Made by a program: the position numbers and the translations under genes
Shown here: positions 2,612 through 4,426 of the stretch, piece after piece
Position numbering within the stretch: position 1 is the stretch's first letter
Layout: each line of letters begins with the position of its first letter
Source: a virus
Length of the DNA: 26,001 bases
Direction: 5' to 3' (one strand)
Virus record (IMG/VR): IMGVR_UViG_3300037882_000503
Span: 1-26,001 of that record
The notes under the pieces: model-generated
What the model saw: the letters and a program-made list of their open reading frames with translations, nothing else
What the model was told of the DNA's origin: nothing
The model's database searches: none

Positions 2612-3165
2612 AGGAGCGCCGTTGTAAGTCGCGCACATGCCGCGCACAATTCACTCCGAAGCAATCAGGGCTTAATGTGCAGAAGTATTGCAATCCTGCT
2701 TGTGAGCTTGATGATGCGCAGATGGGGGTGGCAGCCAAGCCTAAGCCAAAAGCAAAGCAGCGTAAGCTATCTGCAATCAAAAAAGAGCTTTGGGATTTGT
2801 TCAGCCTGCATCAAAAGCTTGTGCACAGTAAAGACGGGAAATGGTGCAACTGCTACACATGCGACAAGCCTATCGAAATAGGTACTATTGACTGCCAAGG
2901 CGGGCACTGCTTCAGTAAGGCGGCTAACGGGGCGCTGTACTTTGACGAGCGAGCAGTGAGGCCGCAATGTTCATACTGTAACTGCGGAGAGGGCGGCAAC
3001 CATTACATATTTAACGAGCGACTGAAGCAAGAGATAGGCCTTGCAGCGTGGCAGGATATGTTCGACAACAGAAAGACTTTGCGCACCGGTTCGCGTCAAG
3101 TTTATATAGAAAAAATTGAATACTACACGGCGGAAAATAAGCGCCTATTGGAGATAAAGAAATGA
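2596..3165 (+). CDS. ninG: NinG-like (Rap) recombination endonuclease, 189 aa
   Basis: Lambda NinG, also called Rap, is a structure-specific endonuclease that cuts recombination intermediates such as Holliday junctions. The family pattern is clear: an N-terminal zinc knuckle (C10, C15, C32, C36), a basic linker rich in Lys and Pro, a tryptophan helix (KKELWDLFSLHQKLVHSKDG), then a second Cys/His set (C84, C86, C89, C100, H104, C125, C128, C130) with the GGHCFSKA and RPQCSYCN stretches and a GGNHYIFNERLKQEIG segment that match the conserved 'GH....R....N...QC..CN...GN' core. Length is close to the family's usual 190-205 residues. It is coupled to the next gene by a four-base overlap. Confidence 0.85.
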   Translation: MVKPLKERRCKSRTCRAQFTPKQSGLNVQKYCNPACELDDAQMGVAAKPKPKAKQRKLSAIKKELWDLFSLHQKLVHSKDGKWCNCYTCDKPIEIGTIDCQGGHCFSKAANGALYFDERAVRPQCSYCNCGEGGNHYIFNERLKQEIGLAAWQDMFDNRKTLRTGSRQVYIEKIEYYTAENKRLLEIKK

Positions 3166-3308
3166 GAGAATCAAAGTGTCCTCAGTGCCAACATCATTCC
3201 CTATACGTAATGCCAGCAGCATGTAAAACTATCTGCGCAAATTGTAAGGTTGAATCGCCTATCGTTAAGTTGTGCAAAGATATTAACGCTAGTTCTGTGA
3301 AGTGTTAA
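3162..3308 (+). CDS. Small zinc-ribbon protein, 48 aa
   Basis: ATG 3162 overlaps the NinG-like stop by four bases. Two Cys pairs (CPQC near residue 6 and CANC near residue 26) form a typical four-Cys zinc ribbon, followed by a short basic tail with two more cysteines. Such one-domain ribbons in nin regions are taken as nucleic-acid or protein adaptors. It is the last gene before the long noncoding stretch, and its stop falls about 20 bases ahead of the first strong RNA hairpin. Confidence 0.6.
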   Translation: MRESKCPQCQHHSLYVMPAACKTICANCKVESPIVKLCKDINASSVKC

Positions 3309-3920
3309 ACTGAAATTGTTGTGAATGCGTAGGCGATACGCGACAGGCTTAAGACTGTTTCCTTGAAGCACCTGACTATCTAAGCAGCAATGCTACGGGT
3401 AGCGCGAAATGAAGTAGCGTCCGTGAATGCCGGTTTCGCACCCGGTCACAACACCGCCCATTCTAACGAGTGGGCAACCTGAAGCCCACTTGCTGAGGTG
3501 CGTGATGCTCGCACAACATCGAACGGCAGGACGATAGGCGAGTGGTATTCAGGTTGTGAATTCGCCGAAAGGCAAAAAGAGCAGTAGGCGAGGAAGGGCG
3601 GATGCCCATAGCCGAAGACCGGCGCAGAGCTGGCAGGTCGTCAGAAAGGGCGGCAACTATGCAGCAAGTAGCGACTGAAATTCAGGCAGTAAAAAATATG
3701 CGGAAAATCGGCGTGATGAGTGGAGTAAAACGAGGTTCGAATCCTTACGCTGCACCAAACTCCAAGCGCGCATGTTCGCAGTAATCCAGATTTAACCAAA
3801 ACCCGTGCAAGCACCTCGCTGCGGCGATCTGGTAAATAAGCATGTAGGGCACGGTAGGACTTGTAACCGCATTGCGCACGGTTCCCTGATGCGGCCTGAA
3901 CGGGGATTAACTAACAGCAA
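3309..3920 (+). ncRNA. Large structured noncoding RNA (GOLLD-like candidate)
   Basis: About 610 bases hold no gene-like frame with a ribosome binding site but many perfect stems in + sense: 3327-3331 with 3337-3341; 3343-3346 with 3355-3358; 3467-3475 with 3484-3492 (nine pairs); 3498-3502 with 3510-3514; 3537-3541 with 3562-3566; a GAAA-tetraloop hairpin 3564-3573; 3596-3599 with 3604-3607; 3611-3614 with 3620-3623; 3786-3791 with 3827-3832; 3867-3872 with 3889-3894. CCGTGC at 3803-3808, enclosed by the 3786-3832 stem, can pair with GCACGG outside it, so pseudoknots are likely. GC content is higher than in neighbouring genes. Size, phage setting, pseudoknots and a tRNA-like element fit what is known of GOLLD RNAs, which are induced in lytic growth. 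The class is my inference and was not checked with a covariance model; the exact ends are unknown. Confidence 0.7.
3660..3757 (+). other. tRNA-like element ending in CCA within the large RNA
   Basis: A T-arm with the canonical loop TTCGAAT at 3736-3742 is closed by GAGG/CCTT and followed by GCTGCACCA. TGCAGC at 3660-3665 is the exact complement of GCTGCA at 3749-3754 and can form the acceptor stem. It is not a normal tRNA: the T-stem end is mismatched, the spacing to CCA is one base off, the 5' part lacks a clear D-arm, and I find no convincing anticodon arm in the 65 bases between. It could be a decayed tRNA, a tRNA mimic that recruits host RNase P or CCA-adding enzyme, or a module of the larger RNA. 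Confidence 0.45.
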
Positions 3921-4169
3921 ATGAAAGACAATATGACCACTAACTTACTACAGGAGCGCGCCTACATGGCGCTGCTGATGACGATGAATGAAGAACTGCC
4001 ATCGCTGCCAGAGGTTGCGCACTTGGAAAACCCAAAGCCGGTTAACCAGTTTCACGCTCAGATGCTTGAGCAGGCAAACAGCCCGGCAACTCACAAGCAC
4101 TGGCCAACACAATCACAAGCAAGAGTCGAGCCATGCAGAGGGTATGAATGGCCGAGTAATGCGATATAG
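3921..4169 (+). CDS. Hypothetical protein, 82 aa
   Basis: This frame lies between the structured RNA and the FtsK-gamma-like gene. ATG 3921 is drawn as start; ATG 3933 is an alternative with a GAAAG ribosome-binding-like sequence ahead of it. The N-terminal half is helical (LLQERAYMALLMTMNEELPSL) and the rest is polar with Pro, His and Gln. No family is recognised. The 3' half overlaps a longer out-of-frame reading, so the gene is plausible rather than certain. It ends eight bases before the next start. Confidence 0.45.
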   Translation: MKDNMTTNLLQERAYMALLMTMNEELPSLPEVAHLENPKPVNQFHAQMLEQANSPATHKHWPTQSQARVEPCRGYEWPSNAI

Positions 4170-4177
4170 GGGGATTT

Positions 4178-4426
4178 ATGGAAACGCACGAATACATTGA
4201 GCGAAACACTAAAACCTTTATTGATGCCGCCGATAAAAAAAAGGTTTTTGGCTGTAGCTATGTTCAGCGACTATGTCGAATTGGCTACAATCAGGCGCAG
4301 CATACAATTGAAGAAATGTTAAATCGCGAAATTATAAATACTGAGGGAGACTACACTTTCAGTTTTGTACGACAAATCAGTCCGCACCTTCGCCCGAGTA
4401 GTCGGGCTTTTTTATTAGTGGTATAA
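4178..4426 (+). CDS. Stand-alone FtsK-gamma-like winged-helix protein, 82 aa
   Basis: ATG 4178 follows a strong AGGGGGA ribosome binding site. Residues about 27-53 read SYVQRLCRIGYNQAQHTIEE and then MLNREII, which matches the helix-turn-helix core of the FtsK gamma domain ('S.LQR..RIGYNRA...ME..G.V'), the winged helix that reads the polar KOPS sequences and contacts XerD. The motor and membrane parts of FtsK are absent, so it could be a KOPS binder, an FtsK competitor or a repurposed regulator. The last 12 codons run through an intrinsic terminator hairpin and the stop codon lies in a -10 box, so the C-terminal tail is shaped by those sites. Confidence 0.7.
   Translation: METHEYIERNTKTFIDAADKKKVFGCSYVQRLCRIGYNQAQHTIEEMLNREIINTEGDYTFSFVRQISPHLRPSSRAFLLVV
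4392..4413 (+). terminator. Intrinsic terminator inside the 3' end of the FtsK-gamma-like gene
   Basis: GCCCGA at 4392-4397 pairs with TCGGGC at 4402-4407 around a four-base loop and is followed by six T residues at 4408-4413. This is a textbook rho-independent terminator. It overlaps codons of the preceding gene, ending the transcript that carries the large RNA unless an antiterminator acts. Confidence 0.8.

Follow-up and report, generated by a model that had tools for sequence, protein, structure and literature searches.

Nature of the stretch between the nin and late genes

The window (the whole 26,001-base stretch analysed here, an IMG/VR record of a podovirus-like phage) raises the question of what lies at positions 3309-3920 if it is not a gene. 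The genes recognised in the window are NinB (weak), NinG, terminase and, downstream, late genes, and the stretch is bounded by a small zinc-ribbon ORF ending at 3308 and an ORF starting at 3921. No ORF longer than 60 aa was found on either strand of 3309-3920, and each of the six frames is interrupted by stops. The longest open frame between the two flanking ORFs is at most 90 codons, with ORFs below 61 aa. A hidden gene was rejected since the frames are closed, in agreement with an earlier reading of the letters alone (the sequence-only reading), which had found no credible gene here and had proposed a large structured noncoding RNA of + sense.

The minimum free energy (MFE) of the stretch is unremarkable, with z = -0.52 on the + strand and +0.61 on the - strand relative to dinucleotide shuffles, and a single fold of unusual stability was therefore rejected. 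The at least ten perfect stems that had been claimed are represented by stems at 3327-3341, 3456-3475, 3476-3483/3548-3555 with 3486-3494/3537-3545, 3498-3514, 3518-3535, 3564-3573 and 3637-3654, but stems listed for the window alone are weak evidence because the MFE is no lower than that of the shuffles. Covariation in homologous regions, on which the sequence-only reading had staked its claim, was found and is strong, and it is because of this covariation in relatives that we call the structured RNA real. Comparison of the sequences makes it very probable that a structured, modular RNA of + sense is encoded at the locus (Table 1).

Table 1. Features of the RNA locus in the window
Feature	Positions	Strand	Remarks
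Extended -10 promoter-like box TGTTAAACT, then GAAATTGTT	3303..3311	+	Putative promoter
5' domain; closing helix GUUGUG (3318-3323)/CACAAC (3447-3452)	3318..3452	+	From sequence
Hairpin GCCCAUUC-UAAC-GAGUGGGC	3456..3475	+	Kept in 12 family loci
Variable long helix, directly 3' of hairpin	3476..3555	+	9 loci, unrelated arms
Apical part of long helix: GUGCG-UGAUGCU-CGCAC (3498-3514), AUCG/CGAU (3518-3521/3532-3535)	3498..3535	+	Kept in L006
Repeated RNA unit, TAGG class	3560..3659	+	~30 copies, ~25 contigs; consensus fold
Unit closing hairpin GUCGU-CAGAAAGG-GCGGC	3637..3654	+	GAAAG loop conserved, stem replaced among phages
Degenerate tRNA-like element	3660..3757	+	From sequence; 3' of unit
3' module AGCGCGCATGTTCGCAG..CCAGATT..GATCTGG..GTAGGGCACGGTAGGACTTGTAACCGCAT	3758..3890	+	Near-identical in L021, L028, L033
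Small ORF, role unassigned	3921..4169	+	Directly 3' of RNA; kept in relatives
Intrinsic terminator GCCCGA-GTAG-TCGGGC TTTTTT	4392..4412	+	Precedes late genes

Relatives of the locus

Relatives that share the gene order of the window were found among IMG/VR contigs by NinG and terminase searches. Short local matches of their gaps to the window exposed the modules, and motif scans raised the set to ~25 contigs, in which the RNA region measures ~0.3 to 0.9 kb. The + sense and the site of the RNA are constant, after NinG/RusA-type resolvases and before terminase. Among the genes tested, the upstream neighbours are NinG or RusA-type resolvases, and the downstream neighbours are small or large terminases of several families. 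The exception in synteny is L039, where the RNA adjoins an exonuclease VIII gene; the module order is also reversed in this contig. A search of 12 records for an integrase found none, and the phages that carry the family are uncultured and apparently lytic, with small genomes.

Outside these contigs, BLAST of NCBI phages with the window, L018, L014 and L172 gave no similar DNA, and the listed matches of L021 were all on its tRNA-Pro stretch. The motifs tried had no match in ~85,000 prokaryotic genomes, a 25-base motif had none in bacterial genome contigs, the RNA model matched 0 of 397 genomes of one family in a search run without a positive control, and the unit described below was absent from the genome-borne terminase relatives L159-L170. 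The RNA and the phage's own genes had no 12-mer in common in a search for antisense matches.

The terminases of the window and its closest terminase relative, L007, are 97% identical, whereas their RNA regions do not align, and modules are therefore exchanged faster than genes. At this site L007 (positions 1-540) carries other modules, among them a tRNA-Met; its GGACAGACC hairpin module also occurs in L172 and covaries by eye.

Hairpin and long helix

The 5' domain holds a hairpin, GCGUA-GGCGA-UACGC (3327-3341), and its closing helix can also be made out in L028 and L035; in L018 and L024 it reads GUUGUUAUUCG/CGAAUAACAAU. The domain is followed by a hairpin with the consensus GCCCATT-N-GNRA-N'-AGTGGGC. 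Across the 12 family loci its loop is GNRA-type or UAAC, the latter in the window, and its closing pair covaries (C-G, A-U, G-C, U-G).

The long helix that abuts the hairpin confirms the long-range pairings claimed earlier. Its arms in the window are AACCUGAA (3476-3483) with UUCAGGUU (3548-3555), then CCACUUGCU (3486-3494) with GGCGAGUGG (3537-3545); as DNA these read AACCTGAA/TTCAGGTT, then CCACTTGCT/GGCGAGTGG. The apical part is 80% identical to that of L006 over 80 bases. A helix of 15-20 bp is found at the same place in L006, L021, L025, L035, L039, L082, L090 and L127; in this set of nine loci including the window, L090 and L127 are near relatives and the rest differ throughout. No strong abutting helix was found in the long-helix test at the family loci L005, L028 and L033.

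In alignments that are small (6 to 9 sequences each) and were delimited by hand, 98.6% of the cells of the long helix were paired and seven of its eight pairs had changed on both sides, which was matched by 0 of 500 shuffles. For the hairpin and long helix together, 97.2% of the cells were paired, nine pairs (29 cells) had changed on both sides, and the covariation score was 0.595, compared with 0.129 ± 0.035 in shuffles; 0 of 500 shuffles were as good on percentage paired and score, and slid controls reached 37-48%. The stems are replaced wholesale because, we suggest, only their shape is selected. Arms that are almost wholly replaced and still pair give a clear example from nature of selection acting on the shape of an RNA.

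The same hairpin, GCCCATT-N-GNRA-N-AGTGGGC, occurs at ~60 other places in viral contigs. Together with the adjoining terminase genes, this would suit an element that works as DNA, i.e., a replication origin, a packaging site or a mobile hairpin. We consider this highly improbable. The long helix was present at 0 of the 64 hairpin occurrences outside the family, so it belongs to the RNA family and not to the hairpin motif. The GNRA and UAAC loops, the pseudoknot and the tRNA-like folds are RNA features, and the strand is constant relative to transcription. The helices also contain G-T without A-C pairs, at 21 vs 0 in the hand-listed set, whose choice was GU-permissive and hence biased, and at 6 vs 2 by symmetric scoring.

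The hairpin motif alone was rejected as diagnostic of the family since most of its 74 sites lie in other contexts. In L056-L122 (e.g., L061:2178-2197) a GCCCATT-N-GCAA-N-AGTGGGC hairpin without the long helix often sits in a short gap directly 5' of an ORF.

The repeated unit

The second module is a unit of ~100-200 nt that begins with ATTCGCC-GAAA-GGC and finishes with a closing hairpin and CAACTA. In the window its order is a GCC-GAAA-GGC hairpin (3564-3573, with a GAAA tetraloop, as had been pointed out), AAAAAGAGCAGUAGG, an internal hairpin, a CCGG..CUGG hairpin, the closing hairpin and CAACUA. The start motif was counted ~30 times in ~25 family contigs, with at most three copies per contig. 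Two classes were distinguished, the TAGG class (window, L003, L021, L123, L127 and L146) and a sister AGC class (L028, L033, L090, L127, L013 and L029). Units stand in tandem in L008, L090 and L127, among others; often tRNA-like elements lie between them.

The AGC-class unit was 100% paired, and 8 of its 13 pairs had changed on both sides. Among these are pairs of a pseudoknot, in which the loop of a small AGC..GCU hairpin pairs further downstream (CAUGG/CCAUG, UGCGG/CCGUG, AGCAG/CUGCU). The pseudoknot that had been suggested was thus recovered as a covarying one in this sister class of the window's unit. In the closing hairpin of the same class the AUGAAAGR loop is kept and the stem is rewritten, with four of five stem pairs changed on both sides and 100% paired.

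Model R2, which was built without the window, recovered the window unit at 32.8 bits (E 6.7e-5), and the models of the TAGG and AGC classes found each other's members. Over 436 kb, every match of the unit models to E = 1 sat at a family RNA locus.

tRNA-like elements and the 3' module

The window's tRNA-like element has a 5' TGCAGC that pairs with GCTGCA, a D-arm-like hairpin, a T-arm (GAGG-TTCGAAT-CCTT) and an encoded CCA. The tRNA-like end reported earlier is therefore present as T-arm, acceptor strand and CCA at 3730-3757, but neither ARAGORN nor Rfam called a tRNA in the window. In relatives this place, immediately 3' of CAACTA, is taken by tRNA elements, canonical or degenerate, which in many arrays precede the next unit. 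All 12 NCCA-ending tRNA-like elements lie within RNA regions, and none lies elsewhere in the scanned loci.

The 3' parts differ among relatives, being a tRNA-like element plus an AGCGCGC module (window, L021, L028), a GGACAGACC module (L172, L007), or the unit followed by a terminator (L014, L029). In the 3' module of the window a CCAGAUU/GAUCUGG helix is kept in L021, L028 and L033.

Stx phages have a tRNA array in the late leader, and the locus could be an ordinary array of this kind in which the tRNAs have decayed and structured spacers only aid processing. Canonical or recognised tRNAs are indeed present in relatives (Met in L007, Pro in L021, Thr in L025, Tyr in L123), and the units often fit exactly between tRNA ends. 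The window has no canonical tRNA with a usable anticodon, and the relatives are mixed in this respect. We regard such a decayed array as distinctly unlikely, because some arrays are without any detected tRNA, and because covariation is seen within the units and the hairpin/long-helix module themselves, which also occur in tandem. Furthermore, the short 13-nt anticodon arm GTGGTCGCACCGC is common to L029:5314-5385 and L137:about 3316-3390 (- strand), while a compensatory pair distinguishes the acceptor stems of the two, so these anticodon-less elements look maintained rather than decaying. A search for wider use of such anticodon-less tRNAs returned L029 and L137 only, a third match looking coding.

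The full array of L172 (G007) has two tandem units and no tRNA. The RNA is hence independent of the tRNA-like elements, and tRNA punctuation was rejected as a universal rule. Acceptor, T-arm and usually CCA are kept, and the anticodon arm is short, palindromic or over-long, in L014, L024, the second copy of L025, L029, L040, L082 and L137. Because the parts kept are those for RNase P and 3' processing and the anticodon often is not, the tRNA-like modules are most likely maturation or stability elements and not decoders. Those without an anticodon raise a question about RNase P, or about tRNA mimicry, during phage infection.

Two further elements were observed. L137:3518-3590 (- strand) is called tRNA-Ile by ARAGORN, yet it matches the tmRNA model at 34.2 bits (cut-off 47); its anticodon arm is short, and it carries the alanine identity element, a G3-U70 pair. 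The element at L024:2779-2859 has a long variable region, and its anticodon arm is a perfect palindrome, GCAATCTAGATTGC.

Promoter-like box and terminators

Directly 5' of the RNA, eight contigs (window, L005, L021, L028, L035, L082, L090 and L127) have TG[TG]TA[AG][AG][ACG]T plus GNAATTGTT; the box common to them is TGTTAAA-like (the GAAATTGTTGTG box) and is followed by GAAATTGTT. A consensus promoter scan that required a -35 did not report the box at 3303..3311, the -35 not being recognised. Downstream of the RNA, 16 intrinsic terminators were found on the + strand vs 3 on the - strand over 38.5 kb, and they are on the same strand as the RNA in most family contigs. The limits of 3309-3920 proposed earlier are revised in part, since the 5' end of the RNA likely lies at ~3318, not at 3309, and the transcript may extend to the terminator at 4392-4412. 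In the same region, an 82-aa ORF (4178-4426) resembles an FtsK gamma-like domain at E 1.6e-6, just under the Pfam cut-off; it is isolated and lies 5' of the late genes.

If the conserved box upstream is a promoter (its -35 is unrecognised), it would, with the terminators downstream, give the layout of a put-type system. The position and the downstream terminators fit a cis-acting late leader as well as they fit an RNA acting in trans, i.e., an RNA that, like HK022 put, would bind the RNA polymerase emerging from the late promoter and allow read-through of the pre-terminase terminators, replacing the Q protein. The RNA occupies the position of the lambda pR' leader, same-strand terminators separate it from the late genes in most contigs, and the Q families PF06530 and PF03589 were unmatched in 11 records, with E. 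coli giving matches as a control. On the other hand, Q proteins are diverse and several records may be fragments, so the two absent Pfam families weigh little. At about 70 nt, put RNAs are short compared with the ~0.3 to 0.9 kb here and do not require parts that resemble tRNAs, and modules are swapped even between the window and L007. On balance we think a cis-acting leader rather unlikely. Its bolder form, in which a phage group without recognisable Q switches on its late genes by a large modular antitermination RNA, far larger than put and with stems rewritten for shape alone, we hold to be a long shot. The locus also bears on whether an RNA stands in for the Q protein.

Proposed role of the RNA

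By analogy with the known large phage RNAs, we lean slightly towards a stable RNA gene of the general GOLLD/ROOL kind with optional tRNA-like maturation modules. Covariation, modularity, cross-finding models, synteny, the promoter-like box, the terminators, the NCCA elements and the lytic setting were counted for a stable RNA; complete arrays without tRNA-like elements (L172/G007), the unremarkable MFE, the small hand-delimited alignments and the equal fit of position and terminators to a cis-acting leader were counted against it. A leader-like transcript would start near 3318 at the early/late junction and end at the intrinsic terminator. It would fold as a chain of independent modules, comprising the hairpin plus long helix, the GNRA unit with its pseudoknot or closing hairpin, and the tRNA-like elements. 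It may accumulate as a stable species in the late phase and could act in trans or have a structural or scaffolding part, on the model of GOLLD and ROOL. Since modules recur and shuffle, each can be studied in isolation.

Comparison with known RNAs

Judged against Rfam 15, the phage, viral and genome collections and a literature search of limited extent, the RNA is best read as a new large modular phage RNA family, although unpublished or subscription work may exist. It would add a further large phage RNA family, unrelated to GOLLD and ROOL, in apparently lytic small-genome phages. To our knowledge, GOLLD and ROOL are large phage RNAs without known function; GOLLD is raised during lysis and forms a 14-mer cage. 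No Rfam 15 family reached gathering in the window, GOLLD and ROOL gave no hit in 3162-4180 at E<=10, and their models had no match in the relatives. The RNA was not filed under GOLLD or ROOL because these defining models are unmatched, and any Rfam family was rejected as its identity on the same ground. Membership of GOLLD, which had been left unconfirmed, is accordingly not supported, and the suggestion of a new family probably holds.

In GOLLD the 3' region is universally conserved and the 5' part less so (PMC12286853). The window RNA resembles it in being large, phage-borne, structured and near or containing tRNAs and in its less conserved 5' part (PMC12286853), and the family is likewise phage-borne and tRNA-associated. 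Unlike GOLLD, the family has swapped modules as its 3' parts and no universally conserved 3' region; its modules are repeated and shuffled, and its stems are replaced wholesale. ROOL, another large and structured RNA of phages, lies near tRNA islands (PMC12286853). The window RNA is also large, structured, phage-borne and tRNA-linked, but the family differs in layout, lacks the fixed P1-P19 fold and has no Rfam match.

In genome position, directly 3' of a late-type promoter (putative here) and 5' of terminators and late genes, the window RNA would match HK022 put and the lambda pR' leader (6S RNA), but it is much longer, modular and has tRNA-like parts. The T4 tRNA cluster contains stable structured RNAs C and D, whose function is not known, among the phage tRNAs. 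By description alone these are similar in being structured RNAs interspersed with phage tRNAs; they are single species, whereas the window family is a repeated, shuffled unit. In eukaryotes, MALAT1-mascRNA and tRNA punctuation use a tRNA-shaped element as a processing signal in a noncoding transcript. The window family also has tRNA-shaped elements, which here are optional and have a putative role in processing.
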